From Corallococcus macrosporus DSM 14697 (GTDB lineage: Bacteria > Myxococcota > Myxococcia > Myxococcales > Myxococcaceae), in NCBI RefSeq assembly GCF_002305895.1, contig NZ_CP022203.1:3016501-3080500 (forward strand): a stretch of 64,000 bases of DNA. Direction: 5' to 3'. Shown here in pieces: positions 8,396-19,045 of the stretch. The notes below the pieces were generated by a model. That model was not told the DNA's origin, did no database searches, and worked only from the letters and a program-made list of their open reading frames with translations. How positions within the stretch are numbered: position 1 is the stretch's first letter; every line of letters begins with the position of its first letter. Made by a program: the position numbers and the translations under genes.

Positions 8396-9328
8396 CTACT
8401 GCGACCAGTCCAGCATGCGCTGCAGCGGCGCGCGAGCACCCTCGCGCAAGTCTTCCGGCATGGTCAGCTCCGGCGTGCGGTCCTTCATGCAGCGCCAGAG
8501 CTTCTCCAGCGTGTTCAGCCGCATGTACGGGCACTCGTTGCACGCGCAGCCGTTGTCCGGCGGCGCGGGGATGAACGTCTTGTCCGGCGCGGCCCGCTTC
8601 ATCTGGTGGATGATGCCCGCCTCCGTCACCACGATGAACCGCTGCTTCGGGCTACGCACCGCGTAATCCAGGATGGCCTTGGTGGAGCCGATGAAGTCCG
8701 CGTGGCGCAGCACCGCCTGCTCGCACTCGGGGTGGGCCACCACCTCCGCGTCCGGGTGCTCCACCTTGAGCTGCACCAGCTTCTTCTCGCTGAAGATTTC
8801 GTGGACGATGCAGCTCCCCGGCCACAGCACCATGTCGCGGCCCGTCTGCTTCATCACGTAGCGGCCCAGGTGCTGGTCCGGCGCGAAGAGAATCTGCCGG
8901 TCCTTCGGCACCTGGTTCACGATTTTCACCGCGTTGGACGACGTGCAGATGACGTCGCTCATGGCCTTCACCGCGGCGGAGCTGTTGACGTAGCTCACCA
9001 CGAAGGCGCCCGGGTGTTTGTCCTTGAACGCCTTGAAGGCCCCCGGCGGGCACCGGTCCGACAGCGAGCAGCCCGCCTTCAGGTCCGGCAGCAGCACCTG
9101 GCGGGACGGATTGAGGATCTTCGCCGTCTCCGCCATGAAGTGGACGCCACAGAAGACGATGACGTCCGCCTGCGTGCGCGCCGCGGCCTGGGCCAGGGCC
9201 AGGCTGTCTCCCACGAAGTCCGCGAGGTCCTGGACTTCGCTCTCCTGGTAATAGTGCGCCAGGATGACTGCGTTCATGGAACGCTTGAGCTCCTGGATTT
9301 CCTTCGCGTAATCGACTTCGGCGCCCAT
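8396..9328 (-). CDS. nadA: Quinolinate synthase NadA
   Basis: 310 residues, the normal length for the short NadA type. NadA condenses iminoaspartate with dihydroxyacetone phosphate to quinolinate in de novo NAD synthesis, using an oxygen-sensitive 4Fe-4S cluster. The three expected cluster cysteines are visible: Cys60 ([13 protein letters not shown]), Cys173 (GSCIVHE) and one in CACNECPYM near 261-266, probably Cys266. The ATG at 9328 is chosen because AGGAGGTG sits just upstream; the frame is open to 9403 but that extension has no ribosome site. No nadB or nadC is adjacent. Confidence 0.97.
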
Positions 9329-9681
9329 GGCACCTCCTGGAGTCCCACATTTAACCGGGACTGGAAGTGCCGGCCAGGGTGCGGTTTGCCCCACTTCGCT
9401 CATGCCCGGGTGGTCGCGAATCGAGCGGGCGGCCCTTTTCCAACATCCGCCCTGTCCTCATGCTGGGGCACTCCCTTCCCCATGAGGTCCGGTAAGATGG
9501 CGAGCCGGGCCGGACGCCACGCATGCGGTTCGGCCATTGCATCTGGGAACTTCGAACCACGGGGGAATGTGAGGGGCCGCCGCCGGAAGGCTCGGCGGGG
9601 CGGTGGTGGCTGGCGGTCACATTCCCATCCGTGAAGTGGTTCATCCGGGGCGGGCGGCTCCGACCCGGTGGAGGAGGACAT
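9329..9681. other. Divergent intergenic region between nadA and the PilZ cassette
   Basis: 353 bases without a supportable gene. It must contain the leftward nadA promoter and the rightward cassette promoter, but no clear -10/-35 pair was found for either. Its main feature is a long inverted repeat at 9563-9626 in the presumed leader of the PilZ gene. Confidence 0.6.
9563..9626 (+). repeat. Long inverted repeat in the leader of the PilZ-acyltransferase gene
   Basis: Perfect 10-base arms, GGGAATGTGA at 9563-9572 and TCACATTCCC at 9617-9626, enclose 44 GC-rich bases that can form a further internal hairpin (GCCGCC against GGCGG). The element ends 55 bases before the start codon. It could be an RNA leader structure or a spaced protein operator; the sequence does not decide. 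Confidence 0.6.
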
Positions 9682-12096
9682 ATGACCGTGACGACGCGCG
9701 CAGTGCTGGTCGTGCATCCGGAGGCGGAGCGTCGTGGACGGCTCCGCGCCTTGCTGGATGGCTACGAAGTGCTCGAAGCCTCCAACCGGCAGGAGGCGGT
9801 CGAATTCCTCACCAAGTCCGTCCCCGCGCTGGTGTTGACGCATCCGGACATCTTTCCCCGCCTGTTGAAGGACCTGGAGCGCTACGCGCCGCGCTCCATC
9901 CGCGCGGTGCTCTGCCCCAAGGACAACGCGCGGGCCCACCACAGCCTGGTGGACGTGGCCGCCGCGGGGCACATGTTCTTCACCCTGGAGGATGACCCCA
10001 CGCCGGCGCTGCGGCGCGCCGTGCAGGAGCTGCTGGACCTGCGTGAGTCCGAGCGCCGCGAGCCGCACGGCGTGTTGGAGGCCCGCTTCACGGCGGATGG
10101 GACGGCGTTCCGCGCGCGGTTGCTGGACGTGGCCACCGGGGGCCTGGGGCTGCGGCTGGAGTCCAGCGTGCGCATCGAGCGGCTCACGCCGGGCACGGAG
10201 CTGGAAGGGCTCCAGGTGCTGCGCGGCGACACGTTGGTGCTGCGCGCCGGCCACGCCACGGTGCGGATGGTCCGCCCCCTGCGCGCGAACGAGGGCAGCG
10301 GCTTCCACCTGGGGGTGTCGTTGGAGCGCCCCATGGAGCATTCGCGTTCCTCCGCCGCGCCGCTGCTCAACGATTCGGTGCGCATCCGCGGCCTGCTCCG
10401 CCGCGCCGTGCGCGCGGGCGTGGGCTTCGGGCTGCGCACGCATGAGGGCAACCGGCTGGTGGACTTCTCCCGCGCGGAGGTGCTCCCGGAGGAGTCCCGA
10501 CTGGTGCTGAGCGAGCAGTCGCAGCCGGGCACGCTCTTCCACCCGGGGGACGTGGTGCGGCTGTGCCTGGACTTCGGCGGCGTGTGTCACGTGGGCACCA
10601 CCGCGGTGCTGGCCTCGGAGCCGAACCAGGTGGAGGTGGCCCTGCCCCGCGCGCTGAGCCTGCACCACCGCCGCAACAGCCTGCGCTTCCGCTCGTCGGC
10701 GGAGCGGCCCTTCGCGGTGTCCTTCAACTCGCCGCTGACGGGTGAGTCCATCGTCCGGCCGCTGCTGGACCTGCACACGGGCGGGTTCGCCTTCCCCTTC
10801 GACGCGGGCCGGGAGGCCTTCCCTCCGGGCCTGGTGCTGGACGACGTGATGCTGCAGTTGCCGGACGGCACGCGCTCACGCTGCCGCGCCCAGGTGCAGG
10901 ACACCGGACAGCTCACGGTGACGGAGGAGGGCGCCAGCATGAGCCGCCCGCGCCGCTGTGGCCTGCGCATCCTGGAGCTGGCGCCGGAGGCCCGCGCCGC
11001 CATCCTGGACGCCTTCATCAAGGCGCGCTGTCCGGACGCGCGCGACGCGTCCGAGCTCCCCTTCTCCGACGTGTGGGATTTGTTCCGCGCCGCCGACGTG
11101 CGCTTTCCCGACTACCCCTTCCACGACACGGCGACGCCGGAGCCGCTGGTGGACGCGCACCAGCGGCTGGGCAACGGCATCCACGGCCTGTCCAAGGCCA
11201 TCGTCTATCAGCGCGAGGGCCGGCTCTACGGCCACATCTCCGGGCTGCGCATCTATTCGCGGACGTGGCTGTCGCAGCACCTGGTGGTGCGGCCGGGCTA
11301 CCACCGGCATGAGTCCATCTCCCAGGAGCTGGTGGCGCTGGCGGCGGACTACGCGGAGAGCCTGGACGACGTGGAGTACCTGCGCGCGCTGTGGCGCTGC
11401 CGCAACCGGTGGACCTCGCGCATCTACGGCGCCATCGCCAGCCGCCTGGAGCGCCCGGGCATGAGCTGTCTGCACGCCTTCACGCCCTGCCGGCTCCCGG
11501 TGGACGCCGCGCTGCCGCCCCCGCGCGCCGACCTGCGCGTGCGCCCGGCGGGGACGTCCGACCTGCGCTGGCTGGAGCAGCACCTGCGGGAGACGCAGGA
11601 CGTGGTGCGCCTGCGCAGCTCGGACCTGGTGGAGGGGGAGATGACCATGGGGACGCTGGGCGGGCGCTACTCGGACGCGCGGCTGCGGCGCTCGCGGCGC
11701 ATCGCCCTGGTGGAAGGCCAGGATGGGCCCAGGGGCTTCGTGCTCATGGAGGACTCGACGCCCGGCCTCTTCTGGGCGGAGTGGTACAACGCCTTCTCGC
11801 TCGTCATGGTGGAGCAGGACGCGCGGGAGGCGGACGCCGTGCGCCAGGCGCTGGTGACGCACGCGGTGGAGGACTCGGCCCGGCGTGGCCGCTCCACCGC
11901 GGAGTGCCTGGCCGCTGACGCGGACCTGCCCGCGCTGGAGGCGCTGGGCTTCCACAACCTGGGCAAGGTGATGGAGTTCACGGCCCACCGCCGGCTCGTA
12001 CGGGACTGGAACGCCTACCTGCTCGCCGTCTTCGAGCGGCTGGCCGCCCATGGCCGTGGCGGCGCTCGGGGAGATGACAAGGACATCGCGGCATGA
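9682..12096 (+). CDS. Pseudo-receiver / double PilZ / GNAT-like multidomain protein
   Basis: 804 residues. Residues 5-118 look like a response-regulator receiver, but the phosphoacceptor position reads LVLTHPD where a receiver has Asp, and the acidic pocket reads VVHPE. Two PilZ-like domains follow. The first (about 120-225) has DVATGG in place of DxSxxG and no clear RxxxR. The second (about 320-440) keeps RNSLR (an RxxxR, near 331) and has DLHTGG. PilZ domains bind cyclic-di-GMP through those motifs, so only the second is a plausible binder. Residues 470-790 resemble two acyltransferase (GNAT-like) modules. The ATG at 9682 follows GGAGGAGGA. The stop overlaps the next start as ATGA, implying translational coupling. 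Confidence 0.8.
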   Translation: MTVTTRAVLVVHPEAERRGRLRALLDGYEVLEASNRQEAVEFLTKSVPALVLTHPDIFPRLLKDLERYAPRSIRAVLCPKDNARAHHSLVDVAAAGHMFFTLEDDPTPALRRAVQELLDLRESERREPHGVLEARFTADGTAFRARLLDVATGGLGLRLESSVRIERLTPGTELEGLQVLRGDTLVLRAGHATVRMVRPLRANEGSGFHLGVSLERPMEHSRSSAAPLLNDSVRIRGLLRRAVRAGVGFGLRTHEGNRLVDFSRAEVLPEESRLVLSEQSQPGTLFHPGDVVRLCLDFGGVCHVGTTAVLASEPNQVEVALPRALSLHHRRNSLRFRSSAERPFAVSFNSPLTGESIVRPLLDLHTGGFAFPFDAGREAFPPGLVLDDVMLQLPDGTRSRCRAQVQDTGQLTVTEEGASMSRPRRCGLRILELAPEARAAILDAFIKARCPDARDASELPFSDVWDLFRAADVRFPDYPFHDTATPEPLVDAHQRLGNGIHGLSKAIVYQREGRLYGHISGLRIYSRTWLSQHLVVRPGYHRHESISQELVALAADYAESLDDVEYLRALWRCRNRWTSRIYGAIASRLERPGMSCLHAFTPCRLPVDAALPPPRADLRVRPAGTSDLRWLEQHLRETQDVVRLRSSDLVEGEMTMGTLGGRYSDARLRRSRRIALVEGQDGPRGFVLMEDSTPGLFWAEWYNAFSLVMVEQDAREADAVRQALVTHAVEDSARRGRSTAECLAADADLPALEALGFHNLGKVMEFTAHRRLVRDWNAYLLAVFERLAAHGRGGARGDDKDIAA

Positions 12097-12881
12097 GCTA
12101 CTTGATGGAATCGGCCCAGGAGGTGCACCGTCTGCAGGCGCAGGCGGGCGCCACCTCCTACGCGGACCGGCTGAGGCTCACCGGGCTGCGGCCCGGAGCC
12201 GCCGCGCTGGATGTGGGCTGTGGTCCGGGCGTCATCACCTCGGAGATGCTGGACGTGGTGGGCCCCCACGGCCGTGTGGTGGGCATGGAGCCGCAGGCCG
12301 AGCACCTGCAAGCGGCCCGGGCGTTGCTCGCGGGCAGGCCCAACGTGGAGCTGCTGCAGGGCGCGCTGCCGGACACGCGCCTGCCCTCCGACCACTTCGA
12401 CTACGTCTGGTGCCAGTACGTCTTCGAATACCTGGGGGAGCCGGGCCCCGCGCTGGCGGAGCTGGTGCGGGTCGTCCGGCCGGGCGGGCGCGTGGTGGTG
12501 GCGGACATCGACGGGGTGGGGCTGTGGAACTGGCCCTTTCCGGAGGACCTCCAGGAGGAGAGCCAGAAGCTGCTGGCCGCCCTCCGCGCGGCGCGCTTCG
12601 ACCTGCACGCGGGCCGCAAGCTGTTCCATCTCTTCCGGAAGGCGGGGCTGGCGGACGTGCGCGTGCACATCTCCCCGTTCTACGTGGCGGCGGGCGCGGT
12701 GGACGCGCGGCTCCACGAGGACTGGGTCATCCGCTTCCGGACGCTGCGCCCGCTGGCGGAGCCCTACTTCGGGGGCGCCGGCCCCTATGACGCCTTCTGT
12801 GAACGCTTCCTCGCACTCCTGGACGACGCCGACACCCTCAAATATGCGATGGTGTTGACGACCGAAGGAGTGAAGCGTTGA
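12093..12881 (+). CDS. Class I SAM-dependent methyltransferase
   Basis: 262 residues. SAM motif I is LDVGCGPGVITSEML (about residue 35), followed by an acidic strand-2 end (GMEPQAEHL) and a late motif VVRPGGRVVVADIDG typical of UbiE/Methyltransf_11 enzymes. The C-terminal half has a substrate cap (FHLFRKAGLADVRVHISPFY). The target, whether small molecule or protein, is not evident. Its start overlaps the upstream stop (ATGA) and its stop overlaps the TTG start of the kinase gene (TTGA), so all three genes should be made together. That context suggests a role in the same signalling pathway. Confidence 0.9.
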   Translation: MSYLMESAQEVHRLQAQAGATSYADRLRLTGLRPGAAALDVGCGPGVITSEMLDVVGPHGRVVGMEPQAEHLQAARALLAGRPNVELLQGALPDTRLPSDHFDYVWCQYVFEYLGEPGPALAELVRVVRPGGRVVVADIDGVGLWNWPFPEDLQEESQKLLAALRAARFDLHAGRKLFHLFRKAGLADVRVHISPFYVAAGAVDARLHEDWVIRFRTLRPLAEPYFGGAGPYDAFCERFLALLDDADTLKYAMVLTTEGVKR

Positions 12882-15778
12882 CCGTCCCCGCGGAACCGGA
12901 CTCCGCACCGTCAGCCCCCGACACGCCCGAGCTGAGTGTCCGGATGCTGCGCAGCGTGATGCTGTACTACGAGCGGACCTACGGCCGGGACAGGCTGGTG
13001 CGGGTGTGGCAGCGCGAGTCGCTGCCGCTGCCCCTGTCGTACATGGAGACGCTCACCAACTTCGTCTCCGTGGGCTTCACCGAGCGCCTGTTCGACGCGC
13101 TCGACAAGGACTCCGGCGACCCGGACTTCATGACGAAGGCGGGGCGCAGCATCGCCAGCCCGGAGGCGGTGGGCTTCCTCTATTACATGATGCGGGCGCT
13201 GGCCACGCCGCGGAGCGTCTACGAGCGCGCGCTGGAGCTGGACCACACGTACAACCGCGTGGGCGGCTTCCACATCGACACGCTGACCGACTCGCGGGTG
13301 CAGGTGCGCTACGTCAGCCGCATCCGCGAACGCGACCGGAACTTCTGCCGCGCGCGCCAGGGCAACCTGTCCGCGTTCCCCGCCATCTGGAACCTGCCCC
13401 TGGCGGAGGTGAAGGAGCTGCGCTGCCAGGTGGATGGGGCGGACTGCTGCGAGTACGACATCCGCTGGCAGGCCCTGCCGCCCCTGGCCTGGCGCTACAT
13501 CGTGGGCGGCATGGCGGGCATGGTGGCCGGGCTGCTGTCGGGCACGCTGAACCTGGCGCCGCCCGTCTTCGCCGTCACCTCCATGGGCATGGTGGGCGTG
13601 GCCGCGGGGGCCTGGCTGGACACGCGCGCGGCCCTGCTGCGCAAGGACGAGAAGCTGTCGGAGCAGCACCAGGGGCTGCAGACGTCGCTGGAGGATCTGC
13701 AGCGGCGCAACGAGGAGATCTTCGCCGCCAACAAGGCGCTCGAGGACCGCGTGGCCGAGCGGACGCAGGAGCTGTCCGAGGCCAACACCAAGCTGGAGGC
13801 GTCGCTCGCGCGGCAGCAGGAGCTGGACCGGCTCAAGAGCGAGTTCTTCGACAACGTCAGTCACGAGCTGCGCACGCCGCTCACGCTCATCCTGCTGACC
13901 CTGGAGGCGCTGGCGAAGCAGATGGAGACGCTGCCGTCCGACGTGGCGCCGCTGGTGACGAACATGGAGCGCAGCGCGCAGCGCCTGCTGCGGCTCATCA
14001 ACAACCTGCTGGACCTGGCCCAGCTGGAGTCGGGCAAGGCGCGGCTGCGCTACCAGCCGCTGGAGCTGTTCGGCTTCCTCAGCACGGTGGTGCCGCCCTT
14101 CCACACCATGGCGGAGAAGCAGGGCGTGACGCTGCGGCTGGAGGGCGCATCCGTGACGCCGGTCCACGTGGACCACGAGCGCATGGACATCGTCTTCCAG
14201 AACCTGCTGGGCAACGCGCTGAAGTTCACCCAGAAGGGCGGGGTGATGGTGCGCGTGCACGAGGACGCGGCGGAGGTGCACGTCGAGGTGGAGGACTCCG
14301 GCCAGGGCATCGCCGCGCAGGACATCCCGGTCATCTTCGACCGCTTCTCCCAGGCGGACAACAGCGGCACCCGGCGCTTCGGCGGCTCGGGCATCGGCCT
14401 GGCGCTGGTGAAGGAGACGCTGGAGCTTCACGCGGGCGGCATCTCGGTGACGAGCGAGCTGGGCAAGGGCTCCACCTTCCACGTGCGGCTGCCCAAGGGC
14501 ACCGCCCACATCCGCGAGGACCTGCGCGAGCGCCGCCAGGCCGTCATGCCCGTGCGCCGGGAGCGCCGCATCTCCGGCGCCTTCCCGTCACTGGAGCCGA
14601 CGGGGCCCACCGTCCTCGGCGCGGCGCCGCCGCAGGCCCGGGACCACGCGGGGCCCGGGCCCGAGTCGCCCCGCATCATGGTGGTGGAGGACGACCCGGA
14701 GATTCGCGCCTTCCTCGCCCGGCTGCTGGCCCAGCACTACCGGGTGCTGGAGGCCATCAACGGCGAGGACGGCCGGCAGCGCGCCCTGCACGAGCGGCCC
14801 GACCTCATCCTGTCGGACGTGATGATGCCCGTCATGTCCGGCCTGCAGATGCTGGTCGCCCTGCGCAATGAGCCGCAGACGGTGGACATCCCCGTCATCC
14901 TCCTCACGGCGCGTCATGAAGTGACGGCCAAGGTGGAGGGCCTGGGCGTGGGGGCCAACGACTACCTGGGCAAGCCCTTCAGTCCGAACGAGCTGCTGGC
15001 CCGCATCGAGACACAGCTTCGCCTGCGCGAGGCGGCGGTGCGCGCCGCGGAGAACGAGCGGCTGGCGGCCGTGGGCCTGCTGACGTCGGGCTTCGCGCAC
15101 GAGGTGCGCAACCCGCTCAACGGGCTGATGAATGCCTTGCTGCCGCTCAAGGACATGCTGTCGGCCGGCGTCTCGGACCCGGAGCTGAGCAAGGCCATGC
15201 TGGACGTGGTGGAGGAGTGCGGCCAGCGCATCCGCCACCTGGCCGAGTCCCTGCTCTCCTTCACGCGGACCAGCGAGACGCCCGTGGTGCTGTCCCTGGA
15301 CTCCACGCTCAGCGTGCTGGCGTGGAAGGTGCCGCCCGACGTCAAGGTGGAGCGGGCGTACCACTGCAACGAGCCGGTGCGCGGCAACCCGGGCGCGTTG
15401 AACCAGGTGTGGTTGAACCTCCTGGACAACGCCCTGCGCGCGGTGGGCGACACGGGGCGGGTGCGCATCGCCACCGCCAGCACGGCGGACGAGGCCATCG
15501 TCACCATTGGCGACGACGGGGTGGGCATCCGCCCGGAGGACATGGAGCGGCTCTTCCAGCCCTTCTTCTCCACCCGCGCCGCGGGCGAGGGGACGGGGCT
15601 GGGCCTGGCGCTCAGCCGCCGCATCATCATCCAGCACGGCGGGCACATCTCGCTGACGAGCGTGCCGGGGGAGGGGACGCAGGTGGAGGTCCGCCTGCCG
15701 CTGCGCCCCGTGGCGCCCCGCGTCCCTGGAGCCGCGCCCGAGCTCGCGTCCGAGCCGCGCATCGGCCGCCTGGGCTGA
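12878..15778 (+). CDS. V4R-like sensor double histidine kinase (HK-REC-HK)
   Basis: 966 residues. Residues 15-205 form a soluble input domain with a V4R-type end (CRARQGNLSAFP, then ELRCQVDGADCCEYDI), a fold that binds small ligands or heme-like groups. Two hydrophobic segments (about 208-250) and a coiled coil (260-315) follow. The first kinase has HisKA His329 in VSHELRTP and a HATPase domain (NALKFTQKGG; GSGIGLALVKE). A receiver follows with Asp647 in LILSDVMMP, then a second HisKA with His741 in FAHEVRNP and a second HATPase (LLDNALRAVG; GTGLGLALSRR). It starts at TTG 12878, overlapping the methyltransferase stop. No output domain is present, so phosphate must pass to another protein. Confidence 0.92.
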   Translation: MTVPAEPDSAPSAPDTPELSVRMLRSVMLYYERTYGRDRLVRVWQRESLPLPLSYMETLTNFVSVGFTERLFDALDKDSGDPDFMTKAGRSIASPEAVGFLYYMMRALATPRSVYERALELDHTYNRVGGFHIDTLTDSRVQVRYVSRIRERDRNFCRARQGNLSAFPAIWNLPLAEVKELRCQVDGADCCEYDIRWQALPPLAWRYIVGGMAGMVAGLLSGTLNLAPPVFAVTSMGMVGVAAGAWLDTRAALLRKDEKLSEQHQGLQTSLEDLQRRNEEIFAANKALEDRVAERTQELSEANTKLEASLARQQELDRLKSEFFDNVSHELRTPLTLILLTLEALAKQMETLPSDVAPLVTNMERSAQRLLRLINNLLDLAQLESGKARLRYQPLELFGFLSTVVPPFHTMAEKQGVTLRLEGASVTPVHVDHERMDIVFQNLLGNALKFTQKGGVMVRVHEDAAEVHVEVEDSGQGIAAQDIPVIFDRFSQADNSGTRRFGGSGIGLALVKETLELHAGGISVTSELGKGSTFHVRLPKGTAHIREDLRERRQAVMPVRRERRISGAFPSLEPTGPTVLGAAPPQARDHAGPGPESPRIMVVEDDPEIRAFLARLLAQHYRVLEAINGEDGRQRALHERPDLILSDVMMPVMSGLQMLVALRNEPQTVDIPVILLTARHEVTAKVEGLGVGANDYLGKPFSPNELLARIETQLRLREAAVRAAENERLAAVGLLTSGFAHEVRNPLNGLMNALLPLKDMLSAGVSDPELSKAMLDVVEECGQRIRHLAESLLSFTRTSETPVVLSLDSTLSVLAWKVPPDVKVERAYHCNEPVRGNPGALNQVWLNLLDNALRAVGDTGRVRIATASTADEAIVTIGDDGVGIRPEDMERLFQPFFSTRAAGEGTGLGLALSRRIIIQHGGHISLTSVPGEGTQVEVRLPLRPVAPRVPGAAPELASEPRIGRLG

Positions 15779-15933: not shown

Positions 15934-17325
15934 ATGCAAGGCACCGTAGCCGCGGGCGATGCCCGCAAGGGGCACCCGCGAGGGCTCTACCTCCTCTTCT
16001 TCACCGAGATGTGGGAACGCATGTCCTATTACGGCATGCGCGGCCTGCTCGTGCTCTTCCTCACGAGCAAGGTCAACGGAGGCTTCGGCTGGTCCACCGC
16101 GGATGCGCTCAGTCTCTACGGCACCTATACGGGCCTGGTGTACCTGACGCCCATCGCCGGCGGCTTCATCGCGGACCGCTTCATGGGACAGCGCCGGGCG
16201 GTGGTGCTCGGTGGCGCGTTGATGATGATAGGCCACCTCGTCCTGGCGCTCCCCAGCGTGACGATGTTCTACGCGGGCCTGGGCTTCCTCATCATCGGCA
16301 ACGGCTTCTTCAAGCCGAACATCTCCACCATGGTGGGCGGGCTGTACGCGCCCGGTGACGGCCGCCGGGACAGCGCCTTCACCATCTTCTACATGGGCAT
16401 CAACCTGGGCGCGGTGCTCGGCAACTTCATCTGCGGCACGCTGGGCGAGCGCGTGGGCTGGCACTGGGGCTTCGGCGCCGCCGGCGTGGGCATGCTGCTG
16501 GGCCTGATTGCCTTCATGTCGCTGCAGAGCAAGCTGCTGGGGCAGGTGGGCCTGGTTCCGGTGAAGATGGTCACCGACGCCGAGTCGAAGCCGGGCACCC
16601 CGAAGCAGTCGTCGGGCTTCAGCCGCGATGAAATCGACCGCATCATCGTCATCTTCATCATCGCGCTCTTCGTCGTCGCCTTCTGGACGGGCTTCGAGCA
16701 GGCCGGTGGACTGATGAACCTCTACACGGACGCGAAGGTGGACCGCGGCGTGCTGGGCTGGGAGGTGCCCACCACCTGGTTCCAGAACTTCAACTCCGTC
16801 TTCATCGTCGCGCTGGCGCCTGTATTCGCCGGCCTGTGGAGCTGGCTGGCCGCGCGCGGCAAGGACCCGAGCATCCCCGTGAAGATGGGCCTGGGCCTGC
16901 TGTTCCTCTCCACCGGCTTCCTCTTCATGCTGGGCGCCTCCAGTGAGAGCGCCTCGGTGGGCAAGGCGGCGGCGTGGTGGGTGGTGATGGCCTACCTGTT
17001 CCACACAATGGGGGAGCTGTGCCTGTCCCCCGTGGGGCTGTCCATGGTGACCAAGGTGGCGCCGGCGCGCATCGTCTCCGCGATGATGGGCGTGTGGTTC
17101 CTCGCGAACGCGGCGGCCAACAAGCTGGCCGGCGTCTTCGGGGGCTACTCGGAGAAGCTGGGCGAGTTCGGCGTGTTCCTCTACATCACCGTGGGAACGG
17201 GCATCGCCGGCGTGCTGCTGCTCATCGTGTCGCCCATCCTCAAGCGGATGATGCACGGCACCGACGAGGTGAAGCCCTCCGCGCCCCCCTCCGAGCAGCA
17301 GGGCGGCTCGGTGGCGGCGGCCTGA
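15934..17325 (+). CDS. POT-family proton-coupled peptide transporter
   Basis: 463 residues with about 12-14 membrane helices. It imports di- and tripeptides with protons across the inner membrane. POT marks are the ExxER-type TEMWERMSYYG in helix 1, the GGFIADRFMG loop between helices 2 and 3, and FTIFYMGINLGA, matching the PTR2 signature. The ATG at 15934 is preceded by AAGGA; that site lies in a small CTTTC-AAG-GAAAG hairpin. It converges on a second POT gene. A peptide importer fits a predator living on the lysed proteins of prey. Confidence 0.93.
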   Translation: MQGTVAAGDARKGHPRGLYLLFFTEMWERMSYYGMRGLLVLFLTSKVNGGFGWSTADALSLYGTYTGLVYLTPIAGGFIADRFMGQRRAVVLGGALMMIGHLVLALPSVTMFYAGLGFLIIGNGFFKPNISTMVGGLYAPGDGRRDSAFTIFYMGINLGAVLGNFICGTLGERVGWHWGFGAAGVGMLLGLIAFMSLQSKLLGQVGLVPVKMVTDAESKPGTPKQSSGFSRDEIDRIIVIFIIALFVVAFWTGFEQAGGLMNLYTDAKVDRGVLGWEVPTTWFQNFNSVFIVALAPVFAGLWSWLAARGKDPSIPVKMGLGLLFLSTGFLFMLGASSESASVGKAAAWWVVMAYLFHTMGELCLSPVGLSMVTKVAPARIVSAMMGVWFLANAAANKLAGVFGGYSEKLGEFGVFLYITVGTGIAGVLLLIVSPILKRMMHGTDEVKPSAPPSEQQGGSVAAA

Positions 17326-17355
17326 GCGGCCCCGGACACCGCTGATTGCAGCGCG

Positions 17356-17387
17356 GACGCCGGTGTCCCGAAAGGGGCGCCGGCGTT
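17356..17387 (+). terminator. Strong hairpin terminator of the first POT transporter
   Basis: A 14-pair stem (with G-U pairs) closed by a GAAA tetraloop at 17370-17373. Left arm 17356-17369 pairs with 17374-17387. CTTGT follows on the plus strand. It lies 30 bases after the transporter stop. Confidence 0.75.
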
Positions 17388-17520
17388 CTTGTAGACGGAT
17401 GCGCCGCTTCTTGGGGCGTATCGCCGGAGCATACCCAGCGCGCCGCCCGAGGCGGCTGTTCGCCCGCCGGGCCGGCTTCGTGGCGCCTCCGGGGGCGGGC
17501 CTGCGGGGCTCTGAAACACG

Positions 17521-17553
17521 AACGCCGGCGCACCGCGAAGGTGCACCGGCGTT
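17521..17553 (-). terminator. Hairpin terminator of the second POT transporter
   Basis: Arms beginning AACGCCGG and ending CCGGCGTT form a 14-position stem with one mismatch around a GCGAA loop. It lies 38 bases beyond the stop of the minus-strand transporter and is followed on that strand by CGTGTTTC. The outer arms match those of the hairpin at 17356. Confidence 0.7.
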
Positions 17554-17590
17554 CATGGCGCGGGCCTGGATGGCCCTGTCGCTGCCCGTC

Positions 17591-19045
17591 CTACGCGGAC
17601 TTCGCCGAGCCGGGCGTCACGCCCGCGGCGTTGCGCTCCTCGGTGGGGACGGGCGCGGACGTCTGGTAGTAGTCGCGCACCACGTAGCGGCGGGCCACCA
17701 GCGCCATGCCCACGGCGGCCAGCAGGGCGAAGCCGGCATAGAAGAAGAACTGCCCGGAGCCCGTGAAGACGTTCAGCTTGGAGGAGACGGCCACCGCCAC
17801 GTTGGCCAGCGTGTTCGTCACCAGCCACACGCTCTGGATGGTGCCCTTCATCTCCCGCGGGGCCTGCGTGTACGCGAACTCCAGGCCCGTGGTGGACATC
17901 AGGATTTCACCCAGCGTCAGCACGATGTACGGGAGGATCTGCCACGCGATGTTCAGCGTCGTGCCGCCCTCCATCGTCACCTGGAAGAAGCCCGCGATGA
18001 TGAAGGACAGCGCGCCCACCACCAGGCCCAGCGGCATGCGCCGCAGCGGCGTCAGCTCCCAGCCGGCGCGCTGGAAGGCCGGGTAGACGACGGCCGTCAG
18101 GAAGGGGATGAGCAGCATCACCAGCAGCGGGTTGACGAACTGCATCTGGCTGGCCTGGAAGGTGAACGGCCCCACCTGCGGGTCCATGGCCCGGGCCTGC
18201 ACCACCCACGTGGACGCCTTCTGGTCGAAGAGCATCCAGAAGAAGGGCACGAAGGGCAGCAGCAGCGCGCTCACCTTGAACACCGCCTTCACGCCGTCCA
18301 CGGCCTCCTCGGGGTGCTCCTTCCTCGCGCCGTCCAGCCAGCTCTTGCCCTGGCCCCGGTTGCGCAGCGCGCTGAACACCACCTTGGTGAAGCTGTGCGG
18401 GTTGGCGCCCGTCGCGGGCACCCGGACGTACTTGTGGCGGCCCAGCCAGAAGATGAACGTGGCGATGAACATCAGCACGCCGGGGATGCCGAAGGCCACC
18501 GACGGCCCGAAGTGCTTGAGCAGCAGGGGGATGAACAGCGACGCGAAGAACGAGCCGAAGTTGATGGTCCAGTAGAAGATGGCGAAGACCTTCTTCACCA
18601 GGTGGCTGTTGGACTCGTTGAACTGGTCCCCCACCATGGCCGCCACGCAGGGTTTGATTCCGCCACTGCCAATGGCGATGAGCGCCAGGCCCGTGAAGAA
18701 CCCCGTGACGTTGTGCTCGAAGACGGCCAGGCACGCGTGGCCCAGGCAGTACACCAGGCTCAGGCCCAGGATGATGCGGTACTTCCCGAAGAAGCGGTCC
18801 GCCAGGTACCCGCCGATGAGCGGGAAGAAGTACACGCCCGCCATGAACGTGTGCATCAGGCTCTTCGCTTCGGCCTCCCGCAGCGCGTTGTCCGGTATCT
18901 GCGTGCGCAGCAGGTAGTCGATGAGGAACACCGTGAGGATGTTCCGCATCCCGTAGAAGCTGAAGCGCTCACACGCCTCGTTGCCGATGATGAAGGGGAT
19001 TTGCGGCGGGAACTTGTTGCTCTGCGCGGCGCTTGCCTGGGCCAT
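17591..19045 (-). CDS. POT-family proton-coupled peptide transporter (second copy)
   Basis: 484 residues with about 12-14 membrane helices. The family marks are NEACERFSFYGMRN in helix 1, LIGGYLADRFFGKYR, and FAIFYWTINFGSF for the PTR2 signature. It differs enough from the convergent neighbour to be an old paralogue, closer to the eukaryotic-like branch (NEACERFSFYG, loop between helices 6 and 7 of about 60 residues). It should import small peptides; a difference in side-chain preference between the two is inference. The ATG start is at 19045. Confidence 0.93.
   Translation of the reverse strand: MAQASAAQSNKFPPQIPFIIGNEACERFSFYGMRNILTVFLIDYLLRTQIPDNALREAEAKSLMHTFMAGVYFFPLIGGYLADRFFGKYRIILGLSLVYCLGHACLAVFEHNVTGFFTGLALIAIGSGGIKPCVAAMVGDQFNESNSHLVKKVFAIFYWTINFGSFFASLFIPLLLKHFGPSVAFGIPGVLMFIATFIFWLGRHKYVRVPATGANPHSFTKVVFSALRNRGQGKSWLDGARKEHPEEAVDGVKAVFKVSALLLPFVPFFWMLFDQKASTWVVQARAMDPQVGPFTFQASQMQFVNPLLVMLLIPFLTAVVYPAFQRAGWELTPLRRMPLGLVVGALSFIIAGFFQVTMEGGTTLNIAWQILPYIVLTLGEILMSTTGLEFAYTQAPREMKGTIQSVWLVTNTLANVAVAVSSKLNVFTGSGQFFFYAGFALLAAVGMALVARRYVVRDYYQTSAPVPTEERNAAGVTPGSAKSA

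Follow-up and report, generated by a model that had tools for sequence, protein, structure and literature searches.

The pixB operon of Corallococcus macrosporus: conserved partner genes and a suggested kinase link to c-di-GMP

A three-gene cassette at positions 9682-15778 of the window is the pixB operon, and its central protein is known. The window is the whole stretch of 64,000 nucleotides that was analysed, i.e., positions 3016501-3080500 of the single-contig genome (8,973,512 bases) of Corallococcus macrosporus DSM 14697. PixB itself has been described before; what is new are its conserved partner genes, encoding a methyltransferase and a hybrid sensor kinase, and a link between this kinase and c-di-GMP, which is suggested by two outgroup genomes where the kinase carries an HD-GYP domain.

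The three open reading frames of the cassette are coupled by stop-start joints, ATGA between the first and the second and TTGA between the second and the third, with a 4-bp overlap in each case (Table 1), just as an earlier, sequence-only reading of this DNA had it. An alternative in-frame start of pixB further upstream, at 9523, is unsupported, since the ortholog alignment begins at 9682, where there is also a strong ribosome-binding site.

Table 1. Features of the pixB operon and its flanks, in window coordinates
Feature	Position	Strand	Basis or remark
nadA, upstream of cassette	8396-9403	minus	
pixB ortholog, 804 aa	9682..12096	+	ribosome-binding site GGAGGAGG at 9670-9677
N-terminal pseudo-receiver of PixB, residues 1-114	9682..10023	+	profile match to PDB receivers
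PilZ domain 1, about residues 118-215, RxxxR at R121	10033..10326	+	Pfam PilZ E 2.4e-5, above cut-off
PilZ domain 2, about residues 325-447, RxxxR at R331	10654..11022	+	RxxxR pair and D-G motif
AT region, two GNAT-like halves, residues 480-606 and 612-790	11119..12051	+	hhalign to GNAT profile
Class I SAM-dependent methyltransferase, 262 aa	12093..12881	+	ATG start
Hybrid sensor kinase (V4R-like / hydrophobic stretch / HK / REC / HK), 966 aa	12878..15778	+	TTG start; Pfam
V4R-like sensor domain with C157, E180, C183, C191	12929..13471	+	cysteine spacing; sub-cut-off Pfam V4R in orthologs
Hydrophobic Gly-rich stretch, possible membrane hairpin	13484..13633	+	simple hydropathy, uncertain
First histidine kinase module, HisKA + HATPase	13835..14497	+	Pfam
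Receiver domain with D647	14675..15010	+	Pfam; D647 in 69/69
Second histidine kinase module	15041..15709	+	Pfam; HD-GYP instead in G026 and G056
Two convergent POT-family transporter genes, after cassette	15934-19045		conserved there in most relatives

The class I assignment of the methyltransferase is clear from Pfam (Methyltransf_11, E 1.8e-19), and in an NCBIfam search no model scored above its cut-off. A distant relative of this methyltransferase is encoded in G055 (L186:3377-5416), 6 bases upstream of a gene that joins a FeeM-type N-acyltransferase to a cyclic-nucleotide-binding part, which makes an analogous pair of a methyltransferase and a second-messenger-gated acyltransferase. The four FeeM-cNMP relatives that come closest in other genomes all lack this methyltransferase as a neighbour, and the pairing in G055 is therefore taken as one isolated case.

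PixB and its acyltransferase-type region

Over its full length, the first protein of the cassette shares 96% identity with a protein of Myxococcus xanthus AM003, and its RxxxR motifs, at 121 and 331, carry the same numbers as R121 and R331, the PilZ arginines of M. xanthus PixB (MXAN_2604; PMC8316039). The published PixB has two PilZ domains and an acetyltransferase domain, binds c-di-GMP, acts upstream of Frz and is required in development; its authors consider that pixB and the two genes downstream may form an operon, and they report that the neighbourhood of pixB is conserved among close relatives (PMC8316039). The window protein shares the two PilZ domains, the C-terminal AT region and the operon-like layout with two downstream genes, so that the two are the same gene. 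It follows that the pathway, which the sequence-only reading had called undescribed, is not so in its central protein, for which c-di-GMP binding, phenotypes and an operon have been published or suggested; the description holds for the partner proteins, which are uncharacterised. Neither the two downstream proteins nor an N-terminal pseudo-receiver is described in the available part of the PixB paper (PMC8316039), and a literature search by locus tag for the two downstream genes found no mention of them. Binding of c-di-GMP, Frz-dependent control of reversals and a role in development, published for M. xanthus only, are thus predictions from sequence when they are carried over to the window protein.

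Two PilZ domains had been read from the sequence, and both can be confirmed, the first by its Pfam score and the second by its RxxxR pair, which is invariant (R331 and R335 in 67/67 orthologs), and its D-G motif, which is nearly so (D363 in 66/67, G368 in 67/67). The arginines of the first domain vary more (R121 in 62/67, R125 in 55/67), in agreement with the published weight of the second PilZ domain, which matters most in M. xanthus PixB (PMC8316039). The second PilZ motif reads DVATGG and DLHTGG in the two domains of the window protein, and the conserved Ser is absent from both, as it is in PixB.

The AT region bears a weak resemblance to GNAT domains, possibly in tandem, and is not filed as GNAT here. 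When its two halves were aligned by hhalign with a profile of 30 GNAT proteins from this genome, P was 0.0031 for the first and 0.0017 for the second, with a low hhalign probability and a plausible register, while control profiles (methyltransferase, receiver, PilZ) gave P of 0.097 or worse. In Pfam the window protein matches no acyltransferase or GNAT model, and four GNAT models give weak matches in one or two orthologs (0.0032 at best). At the position of the acyl-CoA P-loop the first half reads R542-H-E-S-I-S instead of RxxGxG/A, with the first Gly not kept in the orthologs, and no motif of this type was found in the second half. A PDB profile search with the AT region returned no relatives, and the AlphaFold model of full PixB, which is poor (pLDDT 45) and was made from few diverse sequences, is of no use for the fold of this region. 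FeeM-type N-acyl synthases were also considered as relatives and gave no profile match, in a comparison that was insensitive in that the FeeM set contained incomplete rows and the GNAT control went unmatched as well. Of the earlier assignment as acyltransferase there remains, accordingly, the weak likeness to tandem GNAT domains; a canonical CoA P-loop and a Pfam match in the window protein do not go with it.

These findings also allow the AT region to be seen as a catalytically dead, GNAT-like scaffold, which binds a partner in the Frz pathway and transfers no acyl group, and this we regard as doubtful, though to be taken seriously. The absent Pfam GNAT match, the P-loop glycines missing from the first half (R-x-x-S-x-S) and the lack of such a motif in the second are all in its favour, and so is the fact that the published tests took out the whole domain, with no catalytic point mutant described in the available part of the paper (PMC8316039). 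Against it stand more than 40 AT positions, polar or aromatic in many cases, that are near-invariant even where identity has fallen to about 28%, which is unusual for a scaffold; invariant residues are numerous and include R523, W529, L534, R580, D648, E700, H769 and R770. Furthermore, GNAT-fold enzymes that use acyl-ACP can do without the classical motif.

In the mycobacterial cAMP-regulated protein acetyltransferases (cited in PMC8316039), too, a domain that binds a second messenger is linked to one of acyltransferase type; these proteins differ from PixB in messenger and in receptor domain, the AT region of PixB having moreover no canonical GNAT P-loop. To control reversals in M. xanthus, PixB needs no more than its AT region, and binding of c-di-GMP is important in development only (PMC8316039), from which it follows that gating by c-di-GMP explains only a part of its action. 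The combination of PilZ with this AT region also marks a wider family of proteins, 660-740 aa long, that is spread over the phylum and accompanied by neither the methyltransferase nor the kinase (L113, L115, L116, L118, L119).

Conservation of the cassette and HD-GYP versions of its kinase

Among 195 genomes of the phylum, full-length PixB is found in one GTDB family and in a few distant cases, and the methyltransferase and the kinase sensor have almost the same distribution. The main test put forward in the sequence-only reading was whether relatives keep the gene order together with its overlaps, and the cassette passes it: strand and order of the three genes are kept in 66 of the 66 genomes with continuous contigs, where PixB identity goes down to 33% within the family, and the overlap is exactly 4 bp at the first junction in 56 and at the second in 54 of them. 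G082 and G086, in which pixB and the other genes are on different contigs, are outside this count. The three genes are, in this sense, one unit, as had been claimed, and their arrangement is no product of chance.

How much weight the gene order can carry depends on its surroundings. The upstream nadA and the downstream POT genes are also conserved in position, in 59-60 of the 66 genomes, which means that gene order alone is weaker evidence and that part of the synteny reflects slow rearrangement. The cassette is, on the other hand, intact without either flank in four genomes (G106, G150, G069 and G070). In G070 (L077, G070:C47:26660-31574) the methyltransferase and kinase genes are preceded by two pixB-like genes in tandem.

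Consider further the genome G060 (L109), where nadA, kinase and POT are kept and pixB and the methyltransferase gene are both cleanly missing. Its kinase, which is on a long branch, is nested inside the family tree, so that the absence of the two genes is a loss, and their joint absence links PixB and the methyltransferase to each other. Compared with G074, identity to the window is lower for the G060 kinase (54% vs 69%), slightly higher for nadA (88% vs 86%) and somewhat lower for POT (65% vs 71%), and this one case hints at relaxed constraint on the kinase after the loss. In G056 pixB and the kinase gene are present and the methyltransferase gene is not. The kinase alone in G060 and the missing methyltransferase in G056 mean that the three genes are separable; PilZ-AT proteins without the other two cassette genes occur in G067 and G109.

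The kinases of G056 and G026 have an HD-GYP domain in place of the second kinase module (HD_5, E 1.7e-42 and 1.4e-37, respectively), with the LHDVGK and HHExxDGxGYP motifs intact, i.e., with both the HD pair and the HHExxDGxGYP motif of this class. Each of these genomes has only five HD_5 proteins. A PixB homologue is encoded directly before the kinase in G056, and in G026 with only the methyltransferase between them, and both homologues have the RxxxR pair in the second PilZ domain. In the tree the two kinases form one clade outside the family, which means that they represent one evolutionary event. For a c-di-GMP reader next to a kinase with a predicted c-di-GMP phosphodiesterase module, a shared c-di-GMP circuit is the most economical reading, and these relatives, a single clade of two genomes, suggest that the kinase of the cassette belongs to such a circuit. 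By ending in REC-HD-GYP, the outgroup kinases resemble REC-containing HD-GYP phosphodiesterases of the RpfG type, from which the window kinase differs by ending in a second kinase.

It could also be that the three genes are merely co-transcribed and co-inherited, acting in separate pathways, with their order a part of the general synteny. The position-conserved nadA and POT genes around the cassette, the kinase alone in G060 and the PilZ-AT proteins alone in G067 and G109 are what one would then expect. We nevertheless think it unlikely, because the cassette persists without its flanks in four genomes, the overlaps are kept at both junctions, pixB and the methyltransferase gene were lost jointly in G060, and the HD-GYP domain of the outgroup kinases fits a c-di-GMP theme shared by the cassette.

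Sensor kinase and pseudo-receiver

The V4R-like sensor proposed from the sequence is supported by the spacing of its cysteines, since the intervals of 26 and 8 residues between C157, C183 and C191 equal those of the zinc ligands C151, C177 and C185 of DmpR. The residues of this putative zinc site, three cysteines and a Glu, are conserved, with Cys in 68/69 and Glu180 in 69/69 orthologs. Of 26 orthologs, 13 match Pfam V4R at scores under the curated cut-off (best E 7.8e-5; 20.8 bits against a cut-off of 31 for the single ortholog scored in full), and a search of the window kinase gave no match. A PDB profile search with the sensor found no relatives either. The AlphaFold model of the sensor is weak (pLDDT 51, few diverse sequences), and Foldseek on this model gave H-NOX as the nearest fold; H-NOX and V4R belong to one superfamily. 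A heme-type H-NOX sensor was rejected from a reading of the alignment, where the expected stretch has no conserved His, and where YxS is kept and the Arg of YxSxR is not. The V4R phenol sensors DmpR, MopR and PoxR (PMC7264223) have the same Cys-(26)-Cys-(8)-Cys spacing and conserved Glu, but here the V4R-like domain lies within a histidine kinase. Judged by spacing relative to the cysteines, the Trp that anchors phenol in DmpR, MopR and PoxR appears to be absent, which points to another ligand. By simple hydropathy, 35 of 68 kinase orthologs have one hydrophobic segment, 8 have two and 25 have none.

The HK-REC-HK part, also named in the earlier reading, is clear from Pfam as HisKA-HATPase-REC-HisKA-HATPase. 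H-, N- and G-boxes are present in both kinase modules and so is the REC Asp, as in hybrid and REC-gated kinases; the catalytic residues of the first kinase module and of REC are invariant (69/69), and the His of the second module is found in 67/69 orthologs. The best NCBIfam match over these modules is LvrA, far below the NCBIfam cut-off. LvrA/LvrB have the HK-REC-HK layout together with another sensor and another pathway, and in LvrB of Leptospira phosphorylation of REC gates the kinase that follows, REC-gated kinases being an established class (PMC13269768). By analogy, the layout of the window kinase fits a REC-gated second kinase.

The N-terminus of PixB, which had been read as a pseudo-receiver, indeed matches receivers at the profile level (3.5e-5 and 3.9e-5 for the best natural receivers in PDB) and shows their alpha/beta pattern in the weak model of full PixB, but it is without their catalytic acids. 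The acidic pair is replaced by His12-Pro13 (65/67 and 64/67 orthologs), and the position of the phospho-Asp mostly holds H, P or T, with D in only 9/67 orthologs. His12, Pro13 and an AAxGHxF segment are strongly conserved, from which it follows that the domain has kept a function, most simply docking; it is probably a docking or dimerisation surface and not a site of phosphorylation. A classical two-component pair, in which the kinase phosphorylates this N-terminal domain and c-di-GMP is a second input, is hardly credible and was rejected, because the homology to receivers and the Asp in nine orthologs are set against His-Pro in place of the acidic pair in nearly all of them, an Asp absent from 58/67 including the window protein, and a receiver that the kinase carries itself.

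Proposed signalling chain

The preferred reading is a chain in which the V4R-like domain would read a small ligand or a redox or metal state, whereupon the first kinase module would phosphorylate the adjacent REC and REC would gate the next module, a kinase in Myxococcaceae and an HD-GYP phosphodiesterase in the outgroups. The kinase would in this way most likely feed into c-di-GMP turnover, directly in the outgroups and via a separate response regulator in Myxococcus. The PilZ domains of PixB would read the resulting c-di-GMP and adjust the AT region, the product or target of which may be further modified by the methyltransferase, and the output would be fewer Frz-dependent reversals and permission to fruit. 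From ligand sensing and REC gating to PixB as the reader and the joint acyl and methyl transfer, these steps are inferred, and the chances for and against the chain as a whole seem to us evenly balanced.

A more specific version has the cassette as a self-contained module from ligand via c-di-GMP to protein modification. The V4R kinase would set a dedicated c-di-GMP signal, in the outgroups through the HD-GYP domain that it carries itself and in Myxococcaceae, following an exchange of HD-GYP and kinase, through a partner regulator. PixB, the product of a neighbouring gene, would read this signal and drive a paired transfer of acyl and methyl groups to a target that lies upstream of Frz. To this version we give little credence; that two group-transfer enzymes modify a target, as had been proposed, is unproven, the AT region having no canonical CoA P-loop and one relative having no methyltransferase.

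PixB is among the few M. xanthus proteins through which c-di-GMP is connected with fruiting and with Frz, the system that controls reversals. The conserved partners of PixB and the HD-GYP versions of the kinase point to genes and activities that are worth testing.
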